Below the pieces are notes generated by a model, which ran no database searches, was not told where the DNA came from, and saw nothing but the letters and a program-made list of their open reading frames with translations. A DNA stretch of 37,468 bases from Myxococcota bacterium (GTDB lineage: Bacteria; Myxococcota_A; UBA796; UBA9615; JAKLKC01). The stretch lies in contig JAKLKC010000061.1 of the NCBI GenBank assembly GCA_023150875.1, forward strand, positions 1-37,468. The letters run 5' to 3'. Below, one piece after another: positions 5,019-28,824 of the stretch (position 1 is its first letter; each line of letters begins with the position of its first letter). A program made the position numbers and the translations under genes.

Positions 5019-5037
5019 GCCCGCCCGGGGGGGCTCA
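5016..5037. terminator. Convergent-gene hairpin, right copy
   Basis: TGAGCCC (5016-5022) and GGGCTCA (5031-5037) are perfect 7-bp arms. The right arm includes the reverse-strand stop codon of the tyrosine autokinase, and the left arm includes the stop of the UbiA fragment. This is the same element as at 2772-2793. It probably ended transcription from both sides at the ancestral convergent junction. Confidence 0.5.
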
Positions 5038-7182: not shown

Positions 7183-7242
7183 CGCGTCTCCATTCGGCGG
7201 CCCTCGGGCCGCGTCCAGCCCCGGGAAACCCGGGGGATCCCT

Positions 7243-11453: not shown

Positions 11454-12639
11454 GCGCCTCCCCGCGGCGGGCCGCGAGGGCCTCGCGGTAGAGCGACGCC
11501 AGGGTCGCGTAGGCGTCCGGCCCCGGGTCCCCGCGGCCGAAGGAGGGATCCCGGGCCGCCGCCCGGAGGGCCTCCGCCAGGGCTCCCGCGTCACCCTTCC
11601 GATAGGCGGCCACCCCGGCCGGGCGGGCCACCACGTCGCTGGCGATGACCTGGCGCCCGAAGTGGAGGGCCTCCCGTACCGCCACCGAGTCCCCGTCCCT
11701 CTCGGTGGGGCGGAGGAAGGCGTCGCAGCGGGTCAGGGCCTCGGCGAACGTGTCCGGGGAGAGGTCCCGGAGGAACACGCACCGGAGCCCGGCGGAGCGG
11801 AGTCGCACCGCCCTCTCGTACTCGGGATCGATGGGGCCGTAGTGGGCGACCACCAGCCCCCAGAGGTCCGCCCCGCGGATGCGCAGCGCCTCCACCGCCT
11901 CATGGAAGCCGTAGAGGGGCAGGAACCCGCCCGCCACCAGGGCCACGCGGCCCCCGGGGGGCCGCGCGAGGTCGAACGCCGGGCCCAGTTCCCCCTCTCC
12001 CGCCGGCCGGGGCGGGAACAGGAACGCGGGCAGCTCCACGACGCGCTCCCCCGGGACGATCCCCTCGCTCCTCAGCAGGTCCGCGATCTCGCCGTTGACG
12101 GCGATCACCCGGCCCGCCGTCCGGCACAGGACCCGCACCGCGGCCCTGAAGGCGGCCCCCCCGTCGCGCCACCGGGCGGCGAACGAGCCGCTGTGCAGGG
12201 AGAGCAGGCGCCCTCCCCGGGGGCCGATCCGCAGCAGGGGCGCGCCGATCCACGCCGCGCGGTACAGCCACGACACGTGCAGGTGCAGCGCGTCGGGGCG
12301 GGCCCGGGCCGCGTGGCCGAGCATCCGCGCCGCGGCGGGGGCCGGAGCCCGGGGCAGGTCCACCACCCGGACCCCCGGGGAGGGGTGGCGCACCCCGGGG
12401 GAGGGCGCCACCTGGTTGAGCACGGTGACCCGCCACCCGTCCGCGGCGGCGCGGGCGGCCAGCCGGGCGACGTGGACGGTCACGCCGCCCAGGGGCGGAG
12501 GATGCCCTCCGGCGAGGACCAGGGAGGGGGCGGGATCCGCGGGCCTCCCCGGGAGATCGGCGTCGGGCGCACCGGTCCGCTCCGCTCCGAGTCCGAGCGA
12601 CGGCGACACCGCACCCGAGAGGGCTCCCGCTCCCGACAT
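11440..12639 (-). CDS. GT4-family glycosyltransferase
   Basis: This is a GT-B fold glycosyltransferase of family 4, expected to add one sugar to a lipid-linked repeat unit on the cytoplasmic face of the membrane. The N-terminal glycine loop 'LVLAGGHPPPLGGVTVHVARLA', 'LHLHVSWLYRAAW', a mid-domain 'GRVIAVNGEIADLLRSEGI' and the late donor-site block 'LRPTERDGDSVAVREALHFG' (E-x7-E type) are visible. The frame is open to a TTG at 12726, but the extra stretch contains two hairpins (12671-12688 and 12704-12719), has no ribosome binding site and looks like leader. I therefore start at the ATG at 12639, though no candidate has a good Shine-Dalgarno. It is the first gene of the leftward polysaccharide operon. 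Donor and acceptor are unknown. Confidence 0.82.
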   Translation of the reverse strand: MSGAGALSGAVSPSLGLGAERTGAPDADLPGRPADPAPSLVLAGGHPPPLGGVTVHVARLAARAAADGWRVTVLNQVAPSPGVRHPSPGVRVVDLPRAPAPAAARMLGHAARARPDALHLHVSWLYRAAWIGAPLLRIGPRGGRLLSLHSGSFAARWRDGGAAFRAAVRVLCRTAGRVIAVNGEIADLLRSEGIVPGERVVELPAFLFPPRPAGEGELGPAFDLARPPGGRVALVAGGFLPLYGFHEAVEALRIRGADLWGLVVAHYGPIDPEYERAVRLRSAGLRCVFLRDLSPDTFAEALTRCDAFLRPTERDGDSVAVREALHFGRQVIASDVVARPAGVAAYRKGDAGALAEALRAAARDPSFGRGDPGPDAYATLASLYREALAARRGEARARA

Positions 12640-13147
12640 CCTCGACCGCAATCCCATCCTGAGGGCCGGCCCGGGACGTCCATCCCGGCGCGACCCCATC
12701 ATCCCCGGTAAGAACCGGGCTTTCAACCAGGAGGGGACTCGGTCGGGCTCCCGACCCCGCCGCTCCTCCCCGCGCCGCGCCTCTTCGGACGTTCCCGCCC
12801 CGGCATGAGGGGCCGCGGGTCCCTGGAAGAGGGACGACCCCGCGCCCGTGCCCCCCGCTGTTCCCCCGGGGAGCCGAAGCGGGTTCTACACCCTTGGGGC
12901 GGTCCCGGTTACCCTTCGCGCTCCCCCGGGGCGGGACGGTCCCGGTCTGGAGGGGGCGAGGAGGAGCGGGCCGAAGGTGAGAAAGTCCCTATCGAAATCG
13001 TCCGGACATCCGATGGGAACCGCGCCGCTCCGGGATGTGGGAGAGTCCCGGGCGTGGACGGGCCGTCGCCTCCCCCCTCGGGGGGGCTCCCTCGGCGCGT
13101 CCGCAGGTGGGACGGTGCCGTTCACCGCGCCGCTCCCGGGAGGTGGG
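12640..13147. promoter_or_regulatory. Divergent control region of the polysaccharide cluster
   Basis: This gap of about 500 bp separates the leftward glycosyltransferase operon from the rightward export operon. I see no gene in it. It contains inverted repeats CCGGGA/TCCCGG (12671-12688) and CCCGGT/ACCGGG (12704-12719, 4-base loop), probably in the leader of the leftward transcript, and the compact palindrome at 12741-12756. A less GC-rich patch around 12985-13020 contains a perfect GTCCGGAC. No convincing -35/-10 pair or sigma-54 site was found by eye. Confidence 0.5.
12741..12756. promoter_or_regulatory. 16-bp palindrome, candidate operator
   Basis: GGTCGGG and CCCGACC form perfect 7-bp arms separated by only CT. 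The gap is too short for a stable RNA hairpin, so a site for a dimeric regulator is the better reading. It lies about 100 bp upstream of the glycosyltransferase start, in the divergent region, and could govern either operon. Confidence 0.35.
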
Positions 13148-13804
13148 ATGAGACCCTGGTTCCGCGGCGGCCCGGCGCGCCTTCGGCCCCCCATGGCGGT
13201 GGCGCTGCTCCTCCTCGCGTGCCTGGCGGCCTGCTCCCCCCGGGGGCGGGTGGCCGCGGTCTCGTGGGGCGCCGCGGACGAGGCGGGCCTGGCCCAGGCG
13301 CGGGAGTCGGTGCGCAGCGGCATCGTCGGTCCCGGCGACGTGATCTCGGTGCGGGTGTTCCAGGAGCCCGACCTGAGCGGCGACTACCGCGTGGAGGCGG
13401 ACGGCTCCCTCGTCTTCCCCTTCCTGGAGTCGGTGCCGGTGAAGGACCGCACCCCGGGCGAGATCGCCCAGGAGATCCAGACGCGCCTCTCCCAGGGGTG
13501 GATCCAGGCGCCGGTGGTCTCGGTGTTCGTCAAGGAGTTCAACAGCCGCAAGGTGTTCATCTTCGGCGAGGTGAAGCAGCCCGGCACCCTGCCCTTCACC
13601 GACGGCATGACCATCATCCAGGCCATCACCATCGCCGGCGGCTTCACGCCCGATGCGTTGCGGAACCGTACCAGCGTGGCGCGGACCATCGAGGGCAGCG
13701 AGAGCCGGGTGACGGTGCCGGTGGACCGGATCGCCGAGGGGGAGATCCCGAACTTCCCGCTGCGGCCCGGTGACATCGTGTTCGTCCCGGAGTCCCCGAT
13801 CTGA
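13148..13804 (+). CDS. Wza-type polysaccharide export outer-membrane lipoprotein
   Basis: This 218-residue lipoprotein belongs to the polysaccharide export (PES) family, whose Wza member forms the outer-membrane channel for capsule or exopolysaccharide. The signal peptide ends in lipobox 'LAAC' near residues 25-28. The PES motif 'GPGDVISVRVFQEPDLSGDYRVEADG' is followed by one SLBB domain ('KVFIFGEVKQPGTLPFTDGMTI', 'AGGFTPDALRNRTSV'). It is much shorter than E. coli Wza and lacks the C-terminal helix region, as do many short family members. The ATG at 13148 has GGGAGG just upstream; an open frame further upstream (from 12848) is non-coding in character. It begins the rightward operon, and its stop overlaps an ATG of the next frame. 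Its natural partner is the Wzz/Wzc-type kinase at 5035-7182. Confidence 0.9.
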   Translation: MRPWFRGGPARLRPPMAVALLLLACLAACSPRGRVAAVSWGAADEAGLAQARESVRSGIVGPGDVISVRVFQEPDLSGDYRVEADGSLVFPFLESVPVKDRTPGEIAQEIQTRLSQGWIQAPVVSVFVKEFNSRKVFIFGEVKQPGTLPFTDGMTIIQAITIAGGFTPDALRNRTSVARTIEGSESRVTVPVDRIAEGEIPNFPLRPGDIVFVPESPI

Positions 13805-13830
13805 TGCGCCCCCGGCGGGAGGATGACCCC

Positions 13831-15081
13831 GTGGACAGGCCCAGGAAGGTGCTGTGCGTCGTGGGCGCGCGCCCGAACTTCATGAAGATGGCCCCCATCC
13901 TGGAGGCCATGCGTCCCTATGGCGACACGCTGCGGCCGGTGCTGGTGCACACGGGGCAGCACTACGACGCCGCCATGTCCGACGTGTTCTTCGACGACCT
14001 GGACATCCCGGCGCCGGACCGCTTCCTGTCGGTGGGCTCGGGCTCCCACGCCGAGCAGACCGGGCGCACGATGATGGCGTTCGAGCGCTGCGTGGCCGAG
14101 GAGGCGCCCGACCTGGTGGTGGTGGTGGGGGACGTCAACTCCACCCTCGCCTGCGCTTTGGTGGCCGCCAAGGCCCAGGTGCCCCTGGCCCACGTCGAGG
14201 CCGGCCTGCGCTCCCGGGACCCGTCGATGCCCGAGGAGACCAACCGCCGGGTCGCCGACCTGCTCTCGGACCTGCTGTTCACCCACTGCCGCGAGGCCGA
14301 CGAGAACCTGCTCGGCGAGGGGATCGACCCGTCCCGGATCTTGTTCGCCGGCAACGTGATGATCGACTCGGTCCTGAGGTGGCGTTCCCGCGCCCGGGCC
14401 CCCCGGGGCTTCGCGGGGGCCGGCCTCCCGGAGGGGGGGTACGGCCTGGTCACCCTGCACCGCCCGGCGCTGGTGGACGACCCGTCCAAGCTGGTCCCCT
14501 TCGTGGGCACCCTGGTCGGGCTCTCCCGCGAGGTCCCGTTCCTCTACCCCGTCCACCCCCGCACCCTCGGGAAGATGCGGGAGTTCGGGCTCGTCCCCGA
14601 GGGCTTCGAGGCCGACCTCTCCCCCCTGCCGGGCTCCCGCCTCCACCTGTGCCCGCCCCTGCGCTACCTGGAGTTCCTGTGGGTCATGGACCGCGCCCGG
14701 CTGGTGGTGACGGACTCCGGCGGGATCCAGGAGGAGACCTCGGCCCTGGGGGTGCCCTGCCTGACGGCCCGGGACAACACCGAGCGGGGCGTCACCCTGA
14801 CCGAAGGCACGGCCCGCCTCGTCGGCACGGACCCCGCGGCCCTGCCCCGGGCGGTGGCCGAGACCCTCTCGAGGCCCCGCCCGGGGCCCCGACTCCCGGA
14901 GCGGTGGGACGGGAGGGCCGCCCGGAGGATCGCCGCCCTGCTGGACGCCTGGGCCCGGGGGGAGCCCGACCTGGGGGCCGTCCTCCAGCGTCTCGTGACC
15001 CCGGCGGCCACCCGCGCCGCCCCCGCCCCGGGGCCGACCGCCCCCGGACATCGCCCGAGCCGCCCGGAGGCCCCCGCATGA
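13831..15081 (+). CDS. wecB: UDP-N-acetylglucosamine 2-epimerase (non-hydrolysing)
   Basis: This enzyme interconverts UDP-GlcNAc and UDP-ManNAc in the cytoplasm, feeding ManNAc-type sugars into surface polymers. Diagnostic blocks are 'VLCVVGARPNFMKMAPIL', 'HTGQHYDAAMSDVFF', 'HVEAGLRS' with 'PEETNRRVAD', 'AGNVMIDS', 'YPVHPRT' and 'VVTDSGGIQEE'. The usual 'HRRENVG' is replaced by 'HRPALVDDP', a variant. The GTG at 13831 (GGGAGG eight bases upstream) gives a family-like N-terminus; an ATG at 13804 overlapping the previous stop (TGATG) is the alternative and adds nine residues. The C-terminus has a Pro/Ala-rich tail beyond the catalytic fold. It is followed by an overlapping ATGA start. Confidence 0.9.
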   Translation: MDRPRKVLCVVGARPNFMKMAPILEAMRPYGDTLRPVLVHTGQHYDAAMSDVFFDDLDIPAPDRFLSVGSGSHAEQTGRTMMAFERCVAEEAPDLVVVVGDVNSTLACALVAAKAQVPLAHVEAGLRSRDPSMPEETNRRVADLLSDLLFTHCREADENLLGEGIDPSRILFAGNVMIDSVLRWRSRARAPRGFAGAGLPEGGYGLVTLHRPALVDDPSKLVPFVGTLVGLSREVPFLYPVHPRTLGKMREFGLVPEGFEADLSPLPGSRLHLCPPLRYLEFLWVMDRARLVVTDSGGIQEETSALGVPCLTARDNTERGVTLTEGTARLVGTDPAALPRAVAETLSRPRPGPRLPERWDGRAARRIAALLDAWARGEPDLGAVLQRLVTPAATRAAPAPGPTAPGHRPSRPEAPA

Positions 15082-17057
15082 GCGAGCCGAAGCACCTCGC
15101 CCCCGTCGGCGCCGACCGCACCATCGAGCTGCTGCCCCGCCCCCTCCTGCAAGGGCGCCGCTCCATCGCGTTCCTGGTCCAGGCGGGGCTGTTGGCGGCG
15201 GCCTACGTCCTGGCGTTCATGGTGCGCTTCGACTTCCGGGTCCCCGAGGCGTACGCCCGCACCCTCTGGCTGTCCCTGCCGGGGGCCCTGGCGGTGAAGC
15301 TGGTGGTGTTCACCATGTTCCGCCTCCACCAGGGCTGGTGGCGCTACGCGGGGCTCCGGGACCTGGAGACCCTGGTCAAGGCCTCCGCCGTCGCCGCCGT
15401 CGGCGCGATGACCATCAACTACATGGCGCTGGAGATGCGGACCGTCCCGCGTTCGATCTACCTGCTGGATCCGCTGCTGAGCGTGATCCTGGTGGGCGGG
15501 ATGCGCCTCGCGGTGCGGATCTTCCGGGAGCGCCTCATGGCCTCCCGGCATCCCCAGGGCCCGGCGATCCGGGTGCTGATCGTGGGCACCGGCGACGCCG
15601 CCGAGGCCCTGCTCCGCGGGCTCGGGAGGCCGTCGGGGACGCGGTACAAGGTGGTGGGTCTGCTGGACGACGACGACACCCGTCACGGCCTGCGGATCCA
15701 CGGGGTGCCCGTCCTCGGGGGGACCGACCGGATCGGCGCCGAGGTGCAGAAGGGCAACGTCCAGGAGGTCGTCTTCGCCCAGGCGTCCCTGACCCGGGTG
15801 GACATGCAGCGCATCGTCGCCCGGTGCGAGGGCCGGGGGGTGAGGTTCCGGGTGCTCCCCAAGGACTCGGGCTCCCTGGTGGACCACCGCATGATGCAGG
15901 CGCTTCGGGACGTGCAGCTCGAGGACCTGCTGGGGCGCGCCCCCGTCCCCCTGGAGAGCGAGTCCGTCCGGGACCTGGTCCAGGGCAAGGTGGTCCTGGT
16001 CAGCGGCGCCGGAGGCTCCATCGGCTCGGAGCTGGTGCGCCAGGTCGTCCGCCACCACCCCGCCCGCCTGATCCTCCTGGAGCGCGCCGAGAACGCCCTG
16101 TTCCTCCTGACCGAGGAGCTGACGGAGAAGGAGCCGGGCCTCTCGTGGGAGCCGGTGGTGGGGGACGTGACCGACGAGCCCCTCCTGGACGCCGTCTTCG
16201 CCCGTTCCCGCCCCCACGTGGTGGTCCACGCCGCGGCCCACAAGCACGTCCCCATGATGGAGCACAACGCCAGCGAGGCGGTGCGGAACAACGTCTTCGG
16301 CACCCTCTCCCTCGCCCGCGCGGCAGCCCGGCACCGGGCCGACACCTTCGTGCTGATCTCCACCGACAAGGCGGTGAACCCCACCTCGGTGATGGGCACC
16401 ACCAAGAGGGTGGCGGAGCTGGTGGTCCAGGGGATGGCCTCGGCGCACCCCGAGACCCGCTTCGTGGCGGTCCGCTTCGGGAACGTGCTGGGCTCCAACG
16501 GCAGCGTGGTGCCGACGTTCAAGCAGCAGATCGCCCGGGGGGGGCCGGTGACGGTGACCCACCCCGACATGCGGCGCTACTTCATGACCATCCCCGAGGC
16601 GAGCCAGCTCGTCCTGACCGCCGCGGCCCTGGGCCAGGGGGGGGAGGTCTTCATCCTGGACATGGACGAGCCGGTGCGGATCGTGGACATGGCCCGGAAC
16701 CTGATCCGCCTGGCGGGCCTCCGCCCCGACGAGGACGTCAAGATCGTCTACACCGGCCTGCGCCCGGGCGAGAAGCTGTTCGAGGAGCTGAGCGTGGAGG
16801 GGGAGGGCACCCGCAAGACCCGCCACGAGAAGATCTTCATGGGCAAGGTGGCCTCCCTGCCCACGGACGTGCTGGCGGAGGGCCTCCAGGCGCTCCGCCA
16901 GGCGGCGGACGACCACCAGGAGCGGGCGGTGCGGGAGTGCCTGGAGGCGCTGGTGGCCGAGGCCCGGCTCTCGCCAGCGCCGGCCCGGGCCGCCGAGCCC
17001 CTGCTGCCCGCCGCCGTGGCTGCTCCTTCGCCCAAGGTCTCCCGGTCCCACCACTGA
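15078..17057 (+). CDS. CapD/FlaA1-type membrane-bound nucleotide-sugar epimerase/dehydratase
   Basis: This 659-residue protein has an N-terminal half with four or so membrane helices and a CoA-binding-like Rossmann domain ('RVLIVGTGDAAEALLRGLG'). Its C-terminal half is an extended short-chain dehydrogenase domain of the WbpM/CapD/PglF type. The NAD motif is 'VSGAGGSIGSEL' near residues 309-320. The active-site block 'STDKAVNPTSVMGTTKR' near 428-444 has Met in place of the usual Tyr, as in the Ser-Met-Lys-type enzymes of this family. Such enzymes make 4-keto-6-deoxy or C5-epimerised UDP-HexNAc for surface glycans. The ATG overlaps the epimerase stop as ATGA and has GGAGG upstream. It ends the rightward operon, 31 bp before a convergent gene. 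Confidence 0.92.
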   Translation: MSEPKHLAPVGADRTIELLPRPLLQGRRSIAFLVQAGLLAAAYVLAFMVRFDFRVPEAYARTLWLSLPGALAVKLVVFTMFRLHQGWWRYAGLRDLETLVKASAVAAVGAMTINYMALEMRTVPRSIYLLDPLLSVILVGGMRLAVRIFRERLMASRHPQGPAIRVLIVGTGDAAEALLRGLGRPSGTRYKVVGLLDDDDTRHGLRIHGVPVLGGTDRIGAEVQKGNVQEVVFAQASLTRVDMQRIVARCEGRGVRFRVLPKDSGSLVDHRMMQALRDVQLEDLLGRAPVPLESESVRDLVQGKVVLVSGAGGSIGSELVRQVVRHHPARLILLERAENALFLLTEELTEKEPGLSWEPVVGDVTDEPLLDAVFARSRPHVVVHAAAHKHVPMMEHNASEAVRNNVFGTLSLARAAARHRADTFVLISTDKAVNPTSVMGTTKRVAELVVQGMASAHPETRFVAVRFGNVLGSNGSVVPTFKQQIARGGPVTVTHPDMRRYFMTIPEASQLVLTAAALGQGGEVFILDMDEPVRIVDMARNLIRLAGLRPDEDVKIVYTGLRPGEKLFEELSVEGEGTRKTRHEKIFMGKVASLPTDVLAEGLQALRQAADDHQERAVRECLEALVAEARLSPAPARAAEPLLPAAVAAPSPKVSRSHH

Positions 17058-17061
17058 GCGT

Positions 17062-17090
17062 GAACCGAAGGAGGTCGGCGCCGCCGGTTC
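17062..17090. terminator. Weak inverted repeat between convergent genes
   Basis: GAACCG (17062-17067) and CGGTTC (17085-17090) are perfect 6-bp arms with a 17-base intervening segment. The right arm runs into the protease stop codon. It lies between two convergent genes, the expected place for a shared terminator, but the loop is long and there is no T-run. Confidence 0.3.
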
Positions 17091-18366
17091 AGCGCCCGCC
17101 GCGCCGCCGTCCCGCCCAGGCGAACGCCACGAGCCCGAGGGCCGCCCCCGCGCCGGGCCCGCCCGAGGTGGCGCCGTCGCAAGAGCACCCCCGGGCGCTG
17201 CGGCCGCCGCCGTCCCCGACGTCATCGTCGTCATCGTCGTCGGCCGCGTCGTCGTCCCCCGCGGCGTCGTCGTCGGAGGGGGACTCGGCGGGGAGAACCT
17301 CCACGGAGACGGTCACCACCGACGAGGCGGGGGGGACGCCGTCGTCGGTCACCCGGACGCGCACCTCGTCCTCGCCCTCCACGTCCTCGGCGGCGGTGTA
17401 GACCACCAACCCCGCGGCGTCCACGGTGGCCTCCCCGAGGGCCGGGGCGTTCTCCACCGCGTAGGTGTGGGTGTCCCCGGCGTCGGGGTCGTTGGGGTGG
17501 ACCTGGCTGCTGGACGTGTCCCCCTCCCGCACCGAGATGGGCTCGGCGGAGGGCACGGGCGCCCCGTTGGGATCGCAGTCGGGCTCCTCGAGGATCCTCC
17601 CCGAGGTCTCCTCGATCCAGTCGACGATGGCGTCGGGGCGGGCGTAGATCCCCCCGTCGCCGCAGGGATGGGACGAGCCGTTGACCGCCCGGGACGTGAT
17701 CCCCACCAGGAAGGGACCCTCCTTGGTCATCAGGTAGAGGGGGCCGCCGGAGTCGCCGAAGCAGGAGTCCACGCCGTCGCCGCCCGCGGTCAGCTCTCCC
17801 CCCGGGCTCACGTTGCGGTTGCATCCCTGGGACAGGTCGTCGCAGTCGGCGTCGTCGATGGCGGTGATCGCCTCCCGCAGCTTGCTGTCGTACTGGGTGC
17901 CGTTCTGGTTCGTGGCGCCGTAGCCCACGATGGCCACCTCGGCGCCGTCGGCGAGGTAGCGGTCGAGGATGCAGCTCCGGGCGATGGCCCGGGGCGCGAC
18001 GCTGGAGGGGGACTCCAGGATCAGCAGCGAGACGTCGTAGGTGGACCAGGAGTTGGGGTACTCCTCGGTGACGGCGACGTCGATGCTCTCCCCGGGCTCG
18101 GTGTAGTCGTCGACCCCCAGCTTCACCTTCGAGATCCCCCCCGCGCAGTGGCCGGCGGTGAGCACGACGTCGGGGGCGACCAGCACCCCCGTGCACCCCG
18201 GCTGGTTGCCGAAGTACACGGCGGCGGTGTCGGGCCAGCGGTTGTCGTTCACCACCTGCCCCCCGACCACGCCCGCCACCGGCGGGTCCTCGGCGGGGGG
18301 AGCGGCGTGGGCCGCGCCGGGCAGGGCGGCGGCGATGAGGGGGGCGAGGGCTCGGGTCCAGGGCAT
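17089..18366 (-). CDS. Secreted trypsin-like serine protease with MYXO-CTERM-like anchor
   Basis: This is a 425-residue exported S1 protease. It has a signal peptide to about residue 21 ('PGAAHAAPP'), an activation-like site 'VVGGQVVNDNRWPDTAAV', and the catalytic triad His73 ('LTAGHC'), Asp111 ('STYDVSLLIL') and Ser206 ('GDSGGP'). A cadherin-like beta domain spans about 305-375. An Asp-rich stalk follows, and then 'GCSCDGA', a hydrophobic helix and a terminal 'AGRRRGGR'. That tail looks like the MYXO-CTERM sorting signal used for surface anchoring in myxobacteria. The ATG at 18366 is behind GGAG and begins the signal peptide; the frame is open to 18432. A possible -10 (TACCAT, reverse strand at 18474-18479) lies about 110 bp upstream. 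The substrate is unknown. Confidence 0.88.
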   Translation of the reverse strand: MPWTRALAPLIAAALPGAAHAAPPAEDPPVAGVVGGQVVNDNRWPDTAAVYFGNQPGCTGVLVAPDVVLTAGHCAGGISKVKLGVDDYTEPGESIDVAVTEEYPNSWSTYDVSLLILESPSSVAPRAIARSCILDRYLADGAEVAIVGYGATNQNGTQYDSKLREAITAIDDADCDDLSQGCNRNVSPGGELTAGGDGVDSCFGDSGGPLYLMTKEGPFLVGITSRAVNGSSHPCGDGGIYARPDAIVDWIEETSGRILEEPDCDPNGAPVPSAEPISVREGDTSSSQVHPNDPDAGDTHTYAVENAPALGEATVDAAGLVVYTAAEDVEGEDEVRVRVTDDGVPPASSVVTVSVEVLPAESPSDDDAAGDDDAADDDDDDDVGDGGGRSARGCSCDGATSGGPGAGAALGLVAFAWAGRRRGGR

Positions 18367-18645
18367 GGGGGCTCCGGCTCGGACGGGGCCCGCGGGGGGG
18401 AAGGGCGGGCGAGGTCGCACCGGGGGCCGCACCGCCGACCCCCTCGGCGGGGTCCGGCACCCGGGACTCGCGCATGGTAGCGCCCGGATCGCGGATCAGG
18501 AAGGAGGGATTCGGGGGCCGGAGATCCGGAGGCGCGGGCAGGGCTCCGCCATCGCCGAAGCCCCGTCGTGCGCGCTCGGGCACGGGCAGGGGCACGGGCT
18601 CGGGCACGAAGTCGGAGAGGACCCCCGAGGTTCGTGCTCCGGACG

Positions 18646-18906
18646 TCACACCGAGTCGGCGATCACCTCCCAGTTCGTCACCCGGCGGTCGCAGGCGCCG
18701 CAGTCCGGCAGGCGCAGGCCCTTGCGGACGGCGTGGACGACGCCGCAGTCGAAGCAGCGGTAGCGGGCGGTGAAGGGGGCCGCGGTGCCGGCGAGCAGGA
18801 GCAGGTGCCGGGCGGCGGCGAAGGCGGCGGTGAACTGCGGGGCGTCCGTGCCCCTACCGGTGGAGCCGGTGGAGACGCCCCGGGGCGTCGGGTTCGCGGA
18901 GATCAT
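18646..18906 (-). CDS. Small zinc-ribbon protein
   Basis: This 86-residue protein has a Cys-rich C-terminus: 'YRCFDCGVVHAVRKGLRLPDCGACDRR', with two CxxC knuckles typical of a rubredoxin-like zinc ribbon. The N-terminal 50 residues are low in complexity apart from an Ala/Leu-rich helix. The frame is open to 19008, but the ATG at 18906 has a strong GGGAGG five bases upstream and is chosen. It is transcribed away from the eRF1-like protein gene, which also ends in a zinc ribbon. No function can be named; a role in binding RNA or a protein partner is only a possibility. Confidence 0.75.
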   Translation of the reverse strand: MISANPTPRGVSTGSTGRGTDAPQFTAAFAAARHLLLLAGTAAPFTARYRCFDCGVVHAVRKGLRLPDCGACDRRVTNWEVIADSV

Positions 18907-19093
18907 GTTCCTCCCATTCGCGGATCGAGGCCCTACTTCTCGGCATTCGCCAGCGGATCTGCAATCGACACGCCGGGCTCCCCTGGGGTGGGCGGTGGGA
19001 CTCCCCACGGGGGGAGCGCGGCGCGGTGCCGGGCGGCTCCGGGGAAGTTAACGCCGGGACCGGGCGTGGCCAGGGGCTGGGGCGGCCCCGGCG

Positions 19094-19109
19094 TGGCGCC
19101 CCCCTTGCA
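19094..19109 (+). promoter_or_regulatory. Candidate sigma-54 promoter
   Basis: TGGC at 19094-19097, exactly seven bases, then TTGCA at 19105-19109. This is the -24/-12 geometry of sigma-54 promoters (consensus TGGCACG-N4-TTGCA). Transcription would start about 12 bases downstream, near 19121, leaving a leader of under 30 bases before the ATG at 19149. Sigma-54 promoters are abundant in Myxococcota. An activator site was not identified in the gap upstream. Confidence 0.55.
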
Positions 19110-19148
19110 GCCCCCCGTTCCGGGGGCCGGGACCCCCGCGGAGGAGCC

Positions 19149-20408
19149 ATGGACCTGCTGCGGATCGACGAGCCGGGGGAGGCCATCAGCCCCACCTTCC
19201 TCCTGGACGCGAAGGTGAGGGAGCTGGCGGGGATCGAGGCCGACAGCCCGCGGATCCTCAGCGTCTACCTGGACCTCACCATCCGGGACGCGCCGCGGCG
19301 GGAGCGGGCCCGGATCGACGCCAAGACCGGGCTGGCCCGGGTGGACCGGGTCGCCGAGGCCCGGGAGGCGGGGGGGATCGACCGGGGGGTGGCCAAGGTC
19401 GACGTGGACAAGGCCCGGGAGCGGATCGGGTCCTGGACCGCCCCCGGCGCCCAGGCCCCCGGGCGGGGGGTGGCGATGTTCCTCTCCGCGGAGGACGGCC
19501 TCGACCTGCTGGTGGCGGCTCCCGAGCCCTTCACGAACGAGGTCCGGGCCTCCCGGGGGGCCGTGCTGGTGCCCCTGGTCCGCTTGATGGACGAGGGCTC
19601 CGACGCCGTGCTGGTGCTGGTGGACCGCGACCGCTCCCGGATCGTCCACTTCGCCCTCGGCGCCGAGGTCGCCACGATGCACCTGGAGTTCGACGTCGCG
19701 CCCCGGCACCGGCAGGGGGACTGGGGCAACCGCACCCGCCCCCGCTACTCCGGCGGTGCGCTGAACGCGCCGGGCCTCGCGGCCCAGGGGCCCTGGTCGC
19801 GGCAGCCGACCCCCCACTACCAGGAGCACATGGAGTCCGAGGTCGCCGAGCACCACCGCGCCCTGGCCGAGGAGGTGATGCGCCTGTACGCCGGGATCGG
19901 CACCCCCCGCCTCGTGGTGCACGGTCCCGAAGGCGTGAAGGAGGCGTTCGAGCGCCACCTGCCCGACGAGGTGCGCGGGCGGGTGGAGCACGTCCGGGGC
20001 CTCGACCCCGCCCACCCCCAGGGGGACCTGAGGGCCTGGATCACGCGCTACGTCGCGGAGAAGCGCTCCCAGGACGTGCGGGACGGGCTCGCCCGGGCCC
20101 ACGGGGCGGCCCTCGCCGGGGGGCACGGCGCGATGGAGCCCCAGGCGGTGTTGGACGCCCTCCAGGGGCGGCGGGTGATGGACCTCTACTTCGACGCGCA
20201 GATGGTCGCCGAGGCTCGCCAGTGCTCGGACTGCGGCCACCTCCAGCTCGCCGGCACGGAATGCGCCGCCTGCGGGGCGGACACCGGGTCCGTGGACCTG
20301 GGGGAGGCCATGGTCCGACTCGCCCTGGAACAGGACGCGGGCGTCCACCCCGTGGAGGGGGACGAGACCATGCGGCGGTTGCAGGCGGTGGCGAGGCTGC
20401 GGTTCTGA
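19149..20408 (+). CDS. Bacterial eRF1-like (baeRF / Vms1-type) protein
   Basis: This is a 419-residue cytoplasmic protein with the layout of bacterial relatives of archaeo-eukaryotic release factor eRF1 and the peptidyl-tRNA hydrolase Vms1/ANKZF1. An N-terminal domain contains 'SPRILSVYLDLT'. The central domain contains 'VLVLVDRDRSRIVHFALG', the polar segment 'APRHRQGDWGNRTRPRYSGG' and 'HYQEHMESEVAEHHRALAEEV'. Next come 'LVVHGPEGVKEAFERHLPDEV' and a C-terminal zinc ribbon, 'CSDCGHLQLAGTECAACG'. The family is suspected of acting on stalled or non-productive ribosomes, but bacterial members are poorly characterised. The ATG at 19149 follows GGAGGAG; the open frame to 19026 is leader. A sigma-54-like promoter sits 40 bp upstream. 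Confidence 0.78.
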   Translation: MDLLRIDEPGEAISPTFLLDAKVRELAGIEADSPRILSVYLDLTIRDAPRRERARIDAKTGLARVDRVAEAREAGGIDRGVAKVDVDKARERIGSWTAPGAQAPGRGVAMFLSAEDGLDLLVAAPEPFTNEVRASRGAVLVPLVRLMDEGSDAVLVLVDRDRSRIVHFALGAEVATMHLEFDVAPRHRQGDWGNRTRPRYSGGALNAPGLAAQGPWSRQPTPHYQEHMESEVAEHHRALAEEVMRLYAGIGTPRLVVHGPEGVKEAFERHLPDEVRGRVEHVRGLDPAHPQGDLRAWITRYVAEKRSQDVRDGLARAHGAALAGGHGAMEPQAVLDALQGRRVMDLYFDAQMVAEARQCSDCGHLQLAGTECAACGADTGSVDLGEAMVRLALEQDAGVHPVEGDETMRRLQAVARLRF

Positions 20409-20525
20409 GCCGGCCGGGCCGGGACGTGCCCGGGGCCCGTGGGCCCGCCGCCGCCGGGGTGATTATCCTCCGGGACGGAGGCGAGGCCGCCCCGCGGGGG
20501 CCCGCGCCGGGGGTGGGCGACGCGC

Positions 20526-23057
20526 ATGGACCCGACCTGGGAGAGACGTCTGGAGGAGTTCCGGCGGTTCGGTGAGACATCGCCGATCCGGACGGACCTA
20601 GACGACCTGCTGGTGGACCGCATGGCCCGCGTGCAGCGGCTCCTCTCCGCCCACACGGCCAGCGTCTTCCTCGTCGATCCCGAGGGGAGGGAGCTGGTGG
20701 CCCGGGCGTCGCTGGGGTTGGAGGGAGAGGTCGCCCGGGGCCTCTCCATCGCCCTGGGCGAGGGGGTCGAGGGTCGGATCGCCGGGAGTCCCGGCCCGGT
20801 GCGCCTGCCGGACCTCGAGGCGTCGGGCGTCCCCGGCGCCACGGGCCGGGAGCGGAGGGTCCGGTCGCTGCTGGGCGCTCCCATGCGGGTGGCGGGGCGG
20901 ACGGTGGGGGTGCTCCACGTGGGGAGCGTGGCGCGGAGGGAGTGGTCCGACGCCGACGCCTGGCTGATCCAGCTTGCCGCCGGGAGGATCGCCGGGGAGG
21001 TGGAGCACGCCCGCCTCCACGAGGCCGCCCGCTCCACCCTGCGCCAGGTGTCGGCCGCCGCGGAGCGCCACCGGGAGCTGGTCGAGGGGCTGGACCACAC
21101 GCTGGTGTGGGAGGCGGAGGGGCCGTCCCTGCGCGTCACCTACGTCTCCGGGCGCGCCGTGGACCTCCTGGGGATCCCCATCGAGGCCTGGTTCGAGGCG
21201 GAGGGGCTGGTCGGCCGAGTACACCCCGAGGACCGCGCCCGCTTCGAGGAGACGGTCCGGGAGTGCGCCGAGGCGGGAAGCGACCGCCACGTCGACCACC
21301 GCTTCGTGGCGGATGCCGGCTCGTGGCGGTGGTTCCACACGGGGATTCGGTGCGCCGCCTCCGATGGCGACGGGCCCCGGGTGCGGGGGATCTCCGTGGA
21401 CGTCACCGCGCTGAAGGCGGCCGAGGAGTCCTTGCGCCAGAGCGAGGACCGCTTCCGCCGGCTGGTGTCGTGGGTGGAGCCCTACGCGATCTTCGGAGTG
21501 GACGTCGAGGAGCGGATCTCGAGCTGGAACACCGGAGTCCAGCGACTCTTCGGCTACGGCGAGGCCGAGATCGTGGGGATGAGCTTCGGGAAGCTGTACC
21601 CCGAGGATGCGGCGCGGCGCGGGGTGCCGGCCCAGGACCTCGCCCGGGCGAGGGAGGCGGGCTCCCACGAGGCCGAGGGGCCTCGGCTCCGCGGGGACGG
21701 CACCACCTTCCTGGCCCGCTGCGTCATCACCGCCCTGAGGGGCGAGGACCGGGAGCTGCTGGGGTACTCCACGGTGGTCCAGGACGTCACCGCCGACCGG
21801 CGGCGGGAGGAACGGCAGCGGTTCCTGGCCCAGGTCACCGCGGAGTTCGTCTCGACGGCGGACGCGGAGGAGATCCTGCCCCGCCTGGTGGAGGGGGCGG
21901 TCCCGGTCCTTGGGGACCTGTGCGCGGCGGAGCTCTCCGACGGCGTCGGGCCGGGCCGGATCGCGGTGGCCCACGCCGATCCCGAGGTGGCGGAGGCGCT
22001 GAGGAGCGCGTGGGGGGTGCGGCCTCCCGGGCCCGGGCCGGCCTCCGCCCCCGCCGTGCTCCGCGCCGGGGCGCCCGCGCTGTACGAGGCGGCGCCGGAG
22101 GACCTCCTCGCCCCGCCGGCCCCCGGGGGCGGGGCCCCGTCCGCCGCCCGGGACCTGCGTCCCCTCTCGGCCCTCGTCGTCCCCCTCGCCGCCCACGGGA
22201 GGGCGCTGGGGACGCTGCTGGTCGCCACCACCGCGGCGTCGGGTCGCCACCTGGACGAGGGGGACCTGGCGTTCGCCCGGGAGGTCGCCGGGCGGGCGGC
22301 GCTGGCCCTGGACAACGCCCGGCTCCACCGCGAGGCCGAGGAGGCCAACCGCCGCAAGGACGAGTTCATGGCCTTCCTCGCCCACGAACTGAGGAACCCC
22401 CTGGGCAGCATCTCCCTCGCGCTCCACGTGCTCGACCAGCTCTGCGGGCCCGATCCCCGCGTGGTGCGGCATCGGGAGATCATCGGCCGCCAGGTGCGGA
22501 GCCTCTCCCGCCTCGTGGAGGACCTGCTGGACGTGGCGCGGATCACCCAGGGCAAGATGGTCCTGCACCGCTCCCGGGCCGACCTGCGGGACATCGTGGA
22601 CCACGTGCTGGCGACCCATCGGCCCCGGGCCGAGTCGAGGCGCCAGTCGCTGGGGGCCCGCGTCGGCGCCGAGGAGCTGGCGGTGGACGGGGACCCGGTG
22701 CGCCTGGAGCAGATCGCGGGGAACCTGGTGGAGAACGCCATCAAGTACACGCCCGAGGGCGGGAGCGTCCGCGTCGAGGCGCGGCGGGAGGGGGACGAGG
22801 TGGTGCTCCGGGTCGCCGACGACGGGACGGGGATCTCCGCCGACCTCCTCCCCCGGGTCTTCGACATCTACTCCCAGGCCCGGTCGGGTGGGACCTCCCG
22901 GGCCGGGGAGGGAGGGCTCGGCCTGGGGCTCGCCCTGGTGAAGCGGCTGGCGGAGATGCACGGAGGCCGCGTCGCCGCCCGGAGCGAGGGGCCGGGCAGG
23001 GGCAGCGAGTTCGAGGTGCGCCTGCCCGCGGCCCCCCCCGCGTCCCGGGGAGATTGA
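20526..23057 (+). CDS. Soluble multi-sensor histidine kinase (GAF-PAS-PAS-GAF-HisKA-HATPase)
   Basis: This is an 843-residue sensor kinase with no membrane segment, so it senses a cytoplasmic signal. Domains in order are GAF (about 25-175), two PAS domains (about 185-300 and 305-430, with '[16 protein letters not shown]' and '[16 protein letters not shown]'), a second GAF (about 435-600) and HisKA with the phospho-accepting His620 in '[13 protein letters not shown]'. HATPase_c follows with '[14 protein letters not shown]', 'VADDGTGIS' and '[19 protein letters not shown]'. The ATG at 20526 lies in a GC-rich leader with a CCTCCG-gga-CGGAGG hairpin at 20467-20481. It ends 19 bp before a separate receiver ORF. 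Its kinase core is paralogous to that of the hybrid kinase at 23594. Confidence 0.9.
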
Positions 23058-23076
23058 GGAGGGGCGGGGACGGCGG

Positions 23077-23478
23077 GTGCTGGTGGTCGAGGATCACGAG
23101 GACGCCCGGGAGGCCGTCCGGAGCCTGCTGGAGATCCGGCGGTGCAGGGTCGACGTCGCCGAGGACGGGGAGAGGGGCCTGGAGCGCGCCCGGGCGGCGG
23201 TCCTCGGCGCCGCCGTGGGGGACCTGGGCCTGCCGGGCATGGACGGGTGCGCCCTGGCGCGGCGGCTGCGGGAGGAGCTGGGCCCCGGCGTGAGGCTGGT
23301 GGCGCTCACCGCCTGCGGCCAGCCCACGGGCCGGCGGCGGACGCGGGAGGCGGAGGTCGACGCCCACCTCCTCGAGCCGGTGGACGCCTCGGAGCTGGAG
23401 CGCGCCCTGGAGGGCGGGAGCGCCGCGCGGGCGAGCGCCAGCGCAGGAGAGCCGGGGATCCCTCCAACTTCCCCTTGA
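23077..23478 (+). CDS. Degenerate receiver-domain protein
   Basis: This is a 133-residue CheY-like receiver following the kinase in another frame. It has the acidic pocket '[10 protein letters not shown]', Asp49 in '[10 protein letters not shown]' and Thr78 in 'VALTACG'. The invariant lysine is replaced by glutamate (Glu100, 'HLLEPVD' where the paralogue has 'FVVKPVD'). Without that lysine normal phospho-signalling is usually impaired. The GTG at 23077 is the first possible start near the domain, with GAGGAGGGG about 12 bases upstream. Upstream in this frame the codons read '[15 protein letters not shown]', resembling the linker of the fused paralogue, so this may be a hybrid kinase split by a frameshift. 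It may instead be a functional stand-alone partner. Confidence 0.72.
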
Positions 23479-23593
23479 CGGGTCCCGGAGCGGGCCCGAG
23501 AGTCCATGCGCCGTTTCGGGGGCGGGCAGGGGACCGCACCCGGCGGATCCGGCCGCGGCCCCCCACGACAGCACTCCCCCGAGGATCCCGGAC

Positions 23594-25762
23594 ATGCCCA
23601 ACGGCGAGGCGGGGCGCCGCCACGGCGCGCTCTCACCGGTCCGCGGGGGCGCTCCGACCCGGAGCGTTCCCCGGCGGGCCGGCGGCGCGGCCCTGATGGC
23701 CCTCCCCGCGCTCCTGCTCTGGCCCGCGGCCTGGCGCGCCCTCGCTGCCCTTCTCAGTGGCGCCGCCGCCAGATCTCGGGAATTGGCCGCCGACCGGTCC
23801 CGGTCCGAAGAGGCCCGGCGCGTCAGCGAGGGTCGCCTCGCGGCCATCATCGAGTCGGCCATGGACGCGGTGATCACCATCGACGAGGACCAGCGGGTCG
23901 TGGTGTTCAACCGGGCGGCCGAGCAGATGTTCCGTTGCCCGGCGGCGGAGGCCCTGGGTCGGCCCCTGGACCGCTTCATACCCGCAGGGGCCCGCGCCGC
24001 CCACCGGGAATACGTCCGGGCCTTCGCCGCCACCGCCCGGACGGCCCGCCGCATGGGGGCTCTGGGCGCGGTCCGGGGGGTGCGCGCCGACGGCGAGGAG
24101 TTCCCCGTGGAGGCGGCGATCTCCGCGATGGACACCGGGCGGGGCCGCCTGCTGACGGTGGTCCTCCGGGACGTGAGCGAGCGCATGGCGGCCGAGGAGG
24201 CGCTCCGGCGCAGCGAGCGACGCTTCCGCGCCCTGGCCGACGCCATCCCCCAGATCGTCTTCGCCGCGGGGCCCGACGGCAGCACCGAGTACCTGAACCG
24301 CGTGTGGGGGGAGTACACGGGCCTGGCGGCGGAGGAGGGGCTCGGGGACGGGTGGCGATCGGTCCCGGTCCACCCCGACGACGTCGCTCGGGCCGGGGAG
24401 GCGTGGGGGCGAGCGGTGGAGGGGGCGGAGCCCTTCGAGGCGGAGGTCCGGATCCGCAGGGCCTCCGACGGGGCCTGGCGCTGGCACCTGGCCCGGGCGC
24501 AGCCCCTGCTGGACGCCGAGGGCAAGGTGGAGCGGTGGTTCGGCACCTGCACCGACATCCACGACGGGCGGGAGGCCCTCACCGTGCTGCGGGAGGCCGA
24601 CCGGCGCAAGGACGAGTTCCTGGCGATGCTCGGCCACGAGGTCCGGAACCCCCTGGCGGCCATCGTCAACGCCCTGCAGGTGCTCGACCGCGCGCCGGAG
24701 TCCGACACCATGGCGAGGCGGCACCGGGAGGTGATCGGCAGGCAGGTCCGGCACCTGTCCCGCCTGGTGGAGGACCTGCTGGACCTCTCGCGGATCCGCT
24801 CGGGCAAGATCGCGCTGCGCCTGGAGCGCCTGGACCTGCGGGAGGCGCTGGAGCGGGCCTGCGAGGGCCACCGCCCCGCCGCCGAGGGGCGCCGCCAGTC
24901 CCTTACCGTCGCCCTCCCCGGGGAGCCCCTCCCCGTGGACGGGGACGGCGCCCGGCTGGAGCAGGTGGTGGGCAACCTCGTGCAGAACGCGGTCAAGTAC
25001 ACGCCCCCCGGCGGGAGGATCCACGTCTCGGCGGAGGCGGTGGAGGGGCGCGCCGTGGTGCGGGTCCGGGACGACGGGCAGGGCATCGAGCCCGGGAACC
25101 TCGCGGGGATCTTCGACCCCTTCGTGCAGGAGGAGAGGAGCGCCGGGCAGTCCCGGGCGGGGGGGATGGGCCTGGGGCTGCCCCTGGTCCGCCGCCTGGT
25201 GGAGATGCACGGCGGCGAGGTGTCGGCGCGCAGCGAGGGGAGGGACCGGGGGAGCGAGTTCTCGGTTTGGTTGCCGCTGAGGGAGGGCCTGCCGATCCCG
25301 GAGGAGGAGCCGGGGGGGGCGGTCCCGGCGGAGCCTCGTAGGGTGCTGGTGGTGGAGGACAACCCCGACTCCCGGACGACCCTCCAGGACCTGTTGACCC
25401 TGGAGGGGCACGAGGTGGAGGTGGCCGAGGACGGACTCCAGGGCGTGGAGCGGGCCCTGGCGTGGTCCCCGGACGTCGCGCTGGTGGACATCGACCTGCC
25501 GGTGCTGGACGGCTACGAGGTGGCGCGGCGGCTGCGGCGCGAGCCGCGGGGGCGGGCCGTCCGCCTGGTGGCCCTGACGGGGTACGGCCTCGCCGGGCAC
25601 CGCGAGAAGGCGAGGGAAGCCGGCTTCGACGCCTTCGTGGTGAAGCCCGTGGACCTGGGCGAGCTCCGCCGCCTCATCGCCTCGGCCCCGCGGGGGATCC
25701 CCGGGGAGGGCCGCGGCGACGGAGCGGAGGGAACTCCGGGAGTCCCTCCCACACGCGGTTGA
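23594..25762 (+). CDS. Hybrid histidine kinase (PAS-PAS-HisKA-HATPase-receiver)
   Basis: This is a 722-residue hybrid sensor kinase. A single hydrophobic segment near residues 33-57 may anchor it to the membrane. Two PAS domains follow (about 80-200 and 208-335). HisKA has His348 in 'MLGHEVRNPLAAI', HATPase_c has 'NLVQNAVKYTPPGG' and 'GGMGLGLPLVRRLVEMHGG', and a complete receiver carries Asp632 ('LVDIDLPVLDG') and Lys684 ('VVKPVD'). The ATG at 23594 has GAGG nine bases upstream. The kinase core and receiver are close paralogues of the preceding gene pair, so tandem duplication with sensor swapping is likely. With no output domain, a separate response regulator or phosphotransfer protein would be needed. 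Confidence 0.9.
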   Translation: MPNGEAGRRHGALSPVRGGAPTRSVPRRAGGAALMALPALLLWPAAWRALAALLSGAAARSRELAADRSRSEEARRVSEGRLAAIIESAMDAVITIDEDQRVVVFNRAAEQMFRCPAAEALGRPLDRFIPAGARAAHREYVRAFAATARTARRMGALGAVRGVRADGEEFPVEAAISAMDTGRGRLLTVVLRDVSERMAAEEALRRSERRFRALADAIPQIVFAAGPDGSTEYLNRVWGEYTGLAAEEGLGDGWRSVPVHPDDVARAGEAWGRAVEGAEPFEAEVRIRRASDGAWRWHLARAQPLLDAEGKVERWFGTCTDIHDGREALTVLREADRRKDEFLAMLGHEVRNPLAAIVNALQVLDRAPESDTMARRHREVIGRQVRHLSRLVEDLLDLSRIRSGKIALRLERLDLREALERACEGHRPAAEGRRQSLTVALPGEPLPVDGDGARLEQVVGNLVQNAVKYTPPGGRIHVSAEAVEGRAVVRVRDDGQGIEPGNLAGIFDPFVQEERSAGQSRAGGMGLGLPLVRRLVEMHGGEVSARSEGRDRGSEFSVWLPLREGLPIPEEEPGGAVPAEPRRVLVVEDNPDSRTTLQDLLTLEGHEVEVAEDGLQGVERALAWSPDVALVDIDLPVLDGYEVARRLRREPRGRAVRLVALTGYGLAGHREKAREAGFDAFVVKPVDLGELRRLIASAPRGIPGEGRGDGAEGTPGVPPTRG

Positions 25763-25878: not shown

Positions 25879-27297
25879 GTGCTGTTCCAGTCCCTCGACT
25901 ACCTGCTGTTCCTCCCGGCGGTCGCCCTCCTGTACTGGTCGGTGCCCCCGGGCGGGCGGCTGGCGGTCCTGGGCCTCTCCTCCGCCGTCTTCTTCGCGTC
26001 CTGGCACCCCCGGGACCTGCCGGTGCTGGCCCTGGCCATCGGCCTGTCCTGGGCGGGAGGGGGCTGGCTGGCCCGGCGCCGCGCCGCGGGGCTCCCCACC
26101 CGGGCGGCGCTGTGGGTGGTGGGCGTCGCCATCGCCCTGCCCCTGCTGGTCTTCAAGTACTGGAACTGGCTCGCCGCGGACGCCGCCCGGGCCGCGTCCG
26201 CCCTGGGGTGGGAGGTCTCGCCGCCCCGGGTGGAGTGGGCCCTCCCCATCGGGATCTCGTTCTTCACCTTCCAGGCCCTGGGCTACGCGCTGGACGTGGG
26301 CCGCGGCGCGCCCCCCGAGCGGTCCCTCGGGCGCTTCGCCACCTACATCGCCTTCTTCCCCCAGCTCGTCGCCGGTCCGATCCTGAGGGGCCCCCAGCTC
26401 CTGCCCCAGCTCGCCCGCGCGCCGCTGCTGGGGGAGCACCAGGTTGGGGCCGGGCTGTTCCGGATCGGGCGGGGGCTGGCCAAGAAGCTGCTGTTCGCCG
26501 ACGTGGTGCGCCTCGGGCTCGTGGACCCCGTCTTCGACGACCCGGCGGCCTTCACCACGGTGGAGCTGCTCCTCGCGCTCTACGGATACTCGCTCCAAAT
26601 CTACTACGACTTCTCGGGCTACACCGACATCGCCATCGGCTCGGCGCGCCTGTTCGGGATCCAGCTCCCCGAGAACTTCCGGCGGCCCTACCTCGCGACC
26701 TCGGTGGCGGGCTTCTGGCGCCGCTGGCACATCACCCTGAGCGACTGGGTCCGGGACTACGTGTACTTCCCCCTGGGAGGGGCGAGGGGCTCGGACCTCC
26801 GGGTCTACGCCAACATCATGCTGACCCTGCTGATCATCGCGGTGTGGCACGGGGCGGCGTGGACCTTCGTGCTCTACGGCGCGCTCCACGGGGCCGCGGT
26901 GGGGATCAACCGCTGGCGGCGCAAGCGCACCGGCCGCCGGCCCGACGACCCGCTGCCGGGCGCCTGGGCCTGGCTGTGGAGGGTAGCCCTCACCTTCCAC
27001 TTCGTGGTCTTCGCGCGCCTGCTGTTCCGCGCCCCCGACTTCGAGAGCGTGGGCGCGTTCCTGTCCTCCCTCGGGAACTTCGCCCTGGTGGTGCCGAGGT
27101 TCTCGCCCCTGGCCCTCGGGGCCATGCTCCTGGGCTACGCCATCCACTTCAGCCCCGAGTCCTGGCAGCGGCGCTCCGAGGCGTCGTTCTCCCGGGTCGG
27201 CCCGGTGCGGTGGGCGGTGGCGCTGCTGGCGCTGGGGGTGGCGTGTACCCTGCTGGGCACGGGCGAGCAGCTCTCGTTCGTGTACTACCAGTTCTGA
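25879..27297 (+). CDS. MBOAT-family O-acyltransferase (AlgI-like)
   Basis: This is a polytopic inner-membrane acyltransferase of the MBOAT family, AlgI/PatA-like branch, which passes an acyl group, usually acetyl, across the membrane to a periplasmic polymer-modifying partner. Typical features are the N-terminal 'FQSLDYLLFLPAVALLYW', 'FPQLVAGPILRGPQLLPQL', 'YDFSGYTDIAIGSARLFGI', 'FWRRWHITLSDWVRDYVYFPLGG', and the catalytic-site region 'VWHGAAW' (His324) with His337 in 'YGALHGAAVG'. The GTG at 25879 is preferred because it gives a family-like N-terminus and has GAGGGA eight bases upstream; ATGs at 25861 and 25810 are alternatives. The stop overlaps the next ATG as TGATG. Its polymer target could be the exopolysaccharide made by the cluster at 5035-17057, which is inference. 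Confidence 0.9.
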   Translation: MLFQSLDYLLFLPAVALLYWSVPPGGRLAVLGLSSAVFFASWHPRDLPVLALAIGLSWAGGGWLARRRAAGLPTRAALWVVGVAIALPLLVFKYWNWLAADAARAASALGWEVSPPRVEWALPIGISFFTFQALGYALDVGRGAPPERSLGRFATYIAFFPQLVAGPILRGPQLLPQLARAPLLGEHQVGAGLFRIGRGLAKKLLFADVVRLGLVDPVFDDPAAFTTVELLLALYGYSLQIYYDFSGYTDIAIGSARLFGIQLPENFRRPYLATSVAGFWRRWHITLSDWVRDYVYFPLGGARGSDLRVYANIMLTLLIIAVWHGAAWTFVLYGALHGAAVGINRWRRKRTGRRPDDPLPGAWAWLWRVALTFHFVVFARLLFRAPDFESVGAFLSSLGNFALVVPRFSPLALGAMLLGYAIHFSPESWQRRSEASFSRVGPVRWAVALLALGVACTLLGTGEQLSFVYYQF

Positions 27298-28817: not shown

Positions 28818-28824
28818 CGGGGGC

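Follow-up and report, generated by a model that had tools for sequence, protein, structure and literature searches.

Organization of the locus

The window, meaning the whole stretch of DNA analysed, is one entire contig of 37,468 bases from a draft genome of 6.9 Mb. Two genes are arranged divergently across a 242-bp gap (18907–19148): a minus-strand gene for an 86-residue zinc-ribbon protein (18646–18906), and a plus-strand gene for a 419-residue, Balon-like protein of the baeRF (aeRF1) type (19149–20408). A gene caller based on codon usage, which had been trained on 20-kb pieces of this genome, independently gave the bounds and starts of both genes, and both are preceded by GGAGG-type ribosome-binding sites that can be read from the sequence, the one ahead of the larger gene being GGAGGAG (19140–19146, plus strand). 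An earlier note on this DNA had described a divergent pair with a gap of this size and a zinc ribbon in each product. The pair and the gap agree with both the sequence and the gene calls, and the ribbons were found as two C-x2-C pairs, at residues 359, 362, 372, and 375 of the larger protein (residues 359–375 in the C-terminal eRF1 domain 3, encoded at 20223–20273, plus strand), and at residues 51, 54, 69, and 72 of the translated smaller protein (C-x2-C-x14-C-x2-C, encoded at 18691–18756, minus strand). Rfam gave zero matches across the window.

Directly 3′ of the 419-residue gene, positions 20526–25762 (plus strand) encode a GAF/PAS histidine kinase, a lone receiver protein, and a PAS hybrid kinase with a receiver. 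A gap of 117 bp, in which a terminator was not found, separates these genes from the 419-residue gene, and co-transcription is a possibility. On the other side, positions 17089–18366 (minus strand) encode a protease of the trypsin type that carries a bacterial Ig domain; its tail is Asp-rich, contains Cys, and is hydrophobic and Arg-rich, and we take this tail to resemble a MYXO-CTERM sorting signal. An exopolysaccharide gene block occupies positions 5035–17057, and its products include a GNVR/AAA chain-length protein, two O-antigen-ligase-like proteins, a polysaccharide export protein, a UDP-GlcNAc 2-epimerase, and a polysaccharide-type epimerase. Positions 25879–30324 encode an MBOAT acyltransferase and, after it, two proteins of the GDSL/SGNH type, a set that presumably resembles polysaccharide O-acetylation modules. 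Positions 33752–37180 (plus strand) encode a protein of 1142 residues, with seven stretches of the MopE metal-binding motif and four lamin-tail domain stretches.

Family placement of the 419-residue protein

The Pfam model of baeRF family 10 (PF18854) matched the 419-residue protein with an E-value of 1.9e-16 (61 bits, compared with a gathering cut-off of 27.1). The NCBIfam model of the MSMEG_1130/Balon ribosome hibernation family (NF052288) aligned with residues 20–407 (model positions 5–372 of 387; E 1.9e-25), scoring 89.7 bits where the equivalog cut-off is 480, which indicates a homologue and not that equivalog. A single-sequence search of the PDB retrieved Balon (8v9j; E 1.7e-6), and a four-sequence profile of the protein and three relatives retrieved the same structure with E 4e-29 (positions 3–375), together with Rv2629 (E 1.6e-19) and archaeal aRF1 (E 1e-13). 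Balon structures, 8v9j first, were also the top Foldseek matches of an AlphaFold model, which was built from only three sequences; its overall pLDDT is low (48.5, with values of mostly 74–88 in the C-terminal domain), and the fold ranking is therefore used as support only.

Homology over its whole length to aeRF1-type and Balon proteins identifies the 419-residue protein as a complete protein of the aeRF1 type, belonging to the bacterial baeRF clade, in line with the eRF1-type, ribosome-associated protein type that the earlier note had proposed. Its more specific label, baeRF/Vms1-like, stood in the first part, PF18854 being over cut-off, and fell in the second: the VLRF family models, acVLRF1 included, gave zero matches at E ≤ 1. 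A Vms1-like identity was rejected on these grounds, and on the absence of the GxuQ/GGxSQ motif.

A pairwise protein search of 57 other genomes of the order and class returned no orthologues. Across the phylum, PF18854 matched in 35 of 377 genomes at E 0.001, 16 of them over the cut-off. Full proteins were compared only for the four strongest of these places (the genome under study and G244, G134, and G108), all of which carry the ribbon; many of the weaker matches lie in frames some 150 residues long. The 419-residue protein shares 19–25% identity with these relatives, which are remote homologues and not orthologues. Within the class (71 genomes), NF052288 recovered a further two proteins, which have no ribbon and belong to a different baeRF-like type. 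Of two scans of an 84,980-species collection, one yielded 0 loci and the other 2, both already among the four strongest places; these scans require short conserved peptides, and absence there is weak evidence. In that collection, a Bradymonadaceae MAG carries a relative of the gene. A plasmid collection held zero records for the 419-residue protein itself, and gave 12 when searched with a relative, archaeal aRF1 for the most part. The gene for an Azospirillum plasmid homologue is located directly 3′ of a sigma factor gene and has a stress-gene setting, its surroundings encoding DnaJ/CbpM, DegQ, and a universal stress protein.

Catalytic loop and zinc ribbon

A motif scan of the 419-residue protein revealed none of the GGQ, NIKS, and GGxSQ motifs. 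The loop that holds GGQ or GGxSQ in release factors reads GPWSRQ in this protein, and alignment with the three relatives showed it to be about 25 residues longer than theirs (approximately residues 184–219, encoded at 19698–19805, plus strand). The glutamine of GPWSRQ stands one residue further on than in GGWSQ, the GGxSQ form kept by two of the relatives (L007, 1147–2274, and L009, 1168–2274). Both of these score over cut-off for acVLRF1 as well as for baeRF family 10, and they might be active hydrolases that bridge the two clades. In PMC6514570, GGxSQ is the form given for archaeal and actinobacterial VLRF, family 10 is singled out for keeping a catalytic glutamine, and loss of the glutamine, with a free loop length, is tied to lost hydrolase activity. 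We place the 419-residue protein within the baeRF clade, close to family 10 but not as a typical member of it, because the catalytic glutamine motif is not preserved (GPWSRQ, in a lengthened loop).

These features bear directly on the possibility that the protein acts in ribosome rescue or release, namely as an active peptidyl-tRNA hydrolase of the family-10 or VLRF type that frees stalled chains. Such an activity would fit the two relatives that keep GGWSQ and match acVLRF1 over cut-off, and also the family-10 glutamine emphasized in PMC6514570, given that a glutamine is found here one residue further on. However, GGQ and GGxSQ are absent, the loop is some 25 residues longer, acVLRF1 does not match the 419-residue protein, and the closest solved structures are those of Balons, which have no release motif, so that we regard a rescue factor as unlikely. 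Peptidyl-tRNA hydrolysis, for which the earlier note had suggested an assay, is not supported as the likely activity, the GGQ/GGxSQ motif being missing. Since the glutamine motif is lost and the loop is lengthened, blocking of the ribosomal A site is taken as the likelier function than peptide release.

The four ribbon cysteines are conserved in all four aligned proteins. Profile alignments against the PDB placed them on the ribbons of archaeal aRF1 (3ir9, 4af1), within domain 3; Msmeg1130 and Rv2629 have no corresponding cysteines. According to PMC6514570, two strands replace the ribbon in many baeRF families, so a retained ribbon is within the known range. The dipeptide HP occurs in the 419-residue protein at residues 289 and 400 only, and thus not in the N-terminal domain, although the published HP motif of the decoding centre may not be a literal dipeptide. 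Very probably, judged by homology and motif content, the gene encodes a diverged, zinc-carrying relative of the hibernation protein Balon.

A very probable sigma-54 promoter before the 419-residue gene

The sequence TGGCGCCCCCCTTGCA (19094–19109, plus strand) is an exact TGGC-N7-TTGCA match to the −24/−12 promoter of sigma-54, with GG at −24, GC at −12, and exact spacing, and lies 39 bp from the ATG of the 419-residue gene. When the dinucleotides of the gap were shuffled 20,000 times, the exact pattern, with a final A or T, appeared on the plus strand in 0.055% of the outcomes (probability 0.00055). Matches with one mismatch allowed are unremarkable in number (three in the window, compared with 3.1 expected), and weight was therefore placed on the exactness of this match, on where it lies, and on a genome-wide test.

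For this test, all genomic TGGC-N5..9-TTGCA (41) and -TTGCT (57) sites were listed, and the surroundings of each were classified automatically. A site was counted as upstream when it was correctly oriented and no more than 300 bp ahead of the start of a gene, with genes taken from the codon-usage script rather than from curated annotation. The 45 sites with N7, the spacing of sigma-54, comprised 20 upstream of genes, 19 inside genes, and six in other gaps, whereas the 53 sites with wrong spacing (N5, N6, N8, and N9) comprised four upstream, 38 inside genes, and 11 others (20/45 vs 4/53; one-sided p 2e-5). Within 120 bp, the counts were 15/45 and 0/53 (p 2e-6), the 300-bp and 120-bp limits being self-set and the latter picked after the distances had been seen. 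The excess was weaker for sites ending in A alone (5/11 vs 4/30, p 0.04). With the wrong spacings as background, approximately one of the 20 upstream N7 sites would be false. The genes behind these sites include motA, and flgB at the head of a flgB-flgC...fliG stretch; the flgB cluster and motA are known kinds of sigma-54 targets. The genome has one copy of rpoN and 34 matches to the activator domain PF00158, 28 of them strong, none of which is on the contig of the window. The exact match reported in the earlier note was recovered at 19094–19109, and its assignment to sigma-54 gains support from the in-genome enrichment and from the shuffles.

The same data can be read with the site as a chance match, the Balon-like protein being expressed from some other promoter. 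In keeping with this, none of the three remote homologues has a sigma-54 site matching 8 or more of the 9 consensus bases in the 300 bp ahead of the gene; the spacer consensus of sigma-54 sites, ACG, is only partly met by the GCC found here; an activator site was not found in the gap, the search for palindromes giving one 6-bp inverted repeat only, which is attained in 77% of shuffles; and each wrong spacing yields, on average, about one upstream site that is false (four over four spacings). The enrichment statistics argue against it, as does the distance of 39 bp, given that 0 of the 53 wrong-spacing sites fall within 120 bp of a gene. A sigma-70-like alternative, or a terminator, was not found in 18300–20800, although such a search has little power at this high GC content. 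A chance match is, in our estimate, quite unlikely, and TGGC-N7-TTGCA at 19094–19109 very probably represents a genuine sigma-54 promoter.

Other genes behind such sites

The genes preceded by N7 sites further include those for a ClpB-like ATPase and an RpoD/RpoS-like sigma factor. On contig C180 of the same genome (L256, 3788–6878), an N7 site is found 40 bp before a Tll0287-like gene, which is followed by the cbb3 oxidase genes ccoN and ccoO. On contig C77 (L250, 4757–5948), TGGCACGGCCGTTGCT lies 48 bp before the gene for an M50 peptidase with CBS domains, a protein that we liken to the mycobacterial hypoxia response. Others have no evident link to stress (a MATE transporter, a helicase, a ComM-like protein, and a protein of the glucosamine isomerase/6-phosphogluconolactonase family), and several match no family. 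The composition of the set suggests a possible stress or low-oxygen regulon; the Balon-like gene, the cbb3-type oxidase cluster, the M50 protease with CBS domains, the ClpB-like chaperone, and the sigma-70-family factor all stand behind sites of this one class. A mycobacterial Balon homologue near Hrp1 is described in PMC10901736. A broader proposal, that this sigma-54 stress or low-oxygen regulon includes ribosome hibernation, as a counterpart of the mycobacterial hypoxia response, with the divergent zinc-ribbon protein as a co-regulated partner acting on the ribosome, is decidedly doubtful.

The small zinc-ribbon gene

The 86-residue protein matched no Pfam or NCBIfam family over cut-off, and homologues were not detected in the 57 other genomes of the order and class. 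A possible, weaker sigma-54-like site, CGGCGTGTCGATTGCA (18960–18975, minus strand), has one mismatch and is directed at the small gene from 53 bp. Of the CGGC-type sites of this kind among the matches listed (108 sites were counted), 7 of 29 with the right spacing and 5 of 50 with the wrong spacing lie upstream of genes, for a one-sided p of 0.09; when one stretch-edge artefact among the five wrong-spacing upstream sites is omitted, p is 0.054 among the matches listed. These counts are no more than suggestive of a real divergent site.

The two genes could form one system, with a common activator region, back-to-back sigma-54 promoters, and a small protein that is the partner of the hibernation factor. 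The one-mismatch site directed at the small gene, the upstream share of CGGC-type sites, and the joint occurrence of both sites in 0 of 20,000 shuffles are consistent with such an arrangement. Its improbability is indicated by the post hoc character of the comparison, with p at 0.09 among the matches listed, by the lack of a homologue of the small gene in the 57 genomes, and by the absence of such a zinc-ribbon neighbour at the loci of all three relatives. A divergent control region common to both genes is possible, and partnership of the two proteins is argued from position and the weak divergent site only; most simply, the 86-residue gene is an unrelated or unproven neighbour.

Proposed mechanism and significance

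The reading that we favor, with a probability of roughly two in three, is that the 419-residue protein is a diverged hibernation factor of the Balon type, switched on by a sigma-54 activator at the promoter at 19094–19109. The activator firing this promoter would be a bacterial enhancer-binding protein whose gene lies on another contig; the aeRF1 homologue would then be made and would enter the ribosomal A site, and the ribosome would be idled without release of the nascent chain. We infer ribosome binding, hibernation, an inducing signal, and transcription from the 19094–19109 site. Several observations speak against this reading: the score far below the NF052288 equivalog cut-off, the 19–25% identity to relatives, the lack of a literal HP in the N-terminal domain, the location of the gene away from hpf, and, for the promoter, its absence from the three remote homologues, the weaker excess among A-ending sites, and the lack of a significant palindrome in the gap. 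Elsewhere in the genome, on contig C103, rpoN is followed by hpf, the same adjacency as the rpoN-hpf neighbourhood noted in PMC3162934. A link of the 419-residue gene to hpf was rejected, hpf being on that other contig, 3′ of rpoN.

If sigma-54 control is true, ribosome shutdown would be coupled to a signal through an activator dedicated to it, forming a tight switch, and the trigger could be sought among the 28 strong activator candidates of the genome. The mode of switching on is known for few Balon-type factors. The retained ribbon would make this a bacterial hibernation-type factor that is nearer to archaeal aRF1 in layout, and could show what the loss of the ribbon served in other Balons.

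Comparison with known systems

The earlier note had called the bacterial eRF1-like families poorly characterised, which is partly outdated: the structure of Balon was solved on the ribosome in 2024 (PMC10901736). In that paper, Balon-type factors are reported in approximately 20% of bacteria, the family is placed in stress operons, and homologues are linked to the mycobacterial hypoxia response.

The Vms1/VLRF release factors belong to the same superfamily as the 419-residue protein, and two of its relatives match acVLRF1, but the protein itself is unmatched by VLRF models at E ≤ 1 and has neither GxuQ nor GGxSQ. Archaeal aRF1 has the fold in common, and a zinc ribbon at the equal place in domain 3 (3ir9, 4af1), whereas the 419-residue protein is without GGQ and NIKS, and a role in termination at stop codons is not expected. 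With family 10 of the baeRF-1 clade (PF18854), as described in PMC6514570, it shares a model score over cut-off and the domain order, but has GPWSRQ instead of GGWSQ, the catalytic glutamine motif being unpreserved.

The nearest known system is Balon (of Psychrobacter urativorans, with Msmeg1130 and Rv2629 of mycobacteria), which is the best match by both sequence and fold, has the same three-domain aeRF1-type layout over the full length, and likewise is without GGQ and NIKS. The 419-residue protein differs in its four-cysteine zinc ribbon in domain 3, which Msmeg1130 and Rv2629 do not have, in its longer central loop and probable sigma-54 promoter, and in its divergence, with 19–25% identity even to relatives of the same phylum. 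Sigma-54 control of a Balon homologue was not found described in the open-licence PMC literature, as judged by titles. The type of protein is already known, and its probable control by sigma-54 would be the unusual mode.
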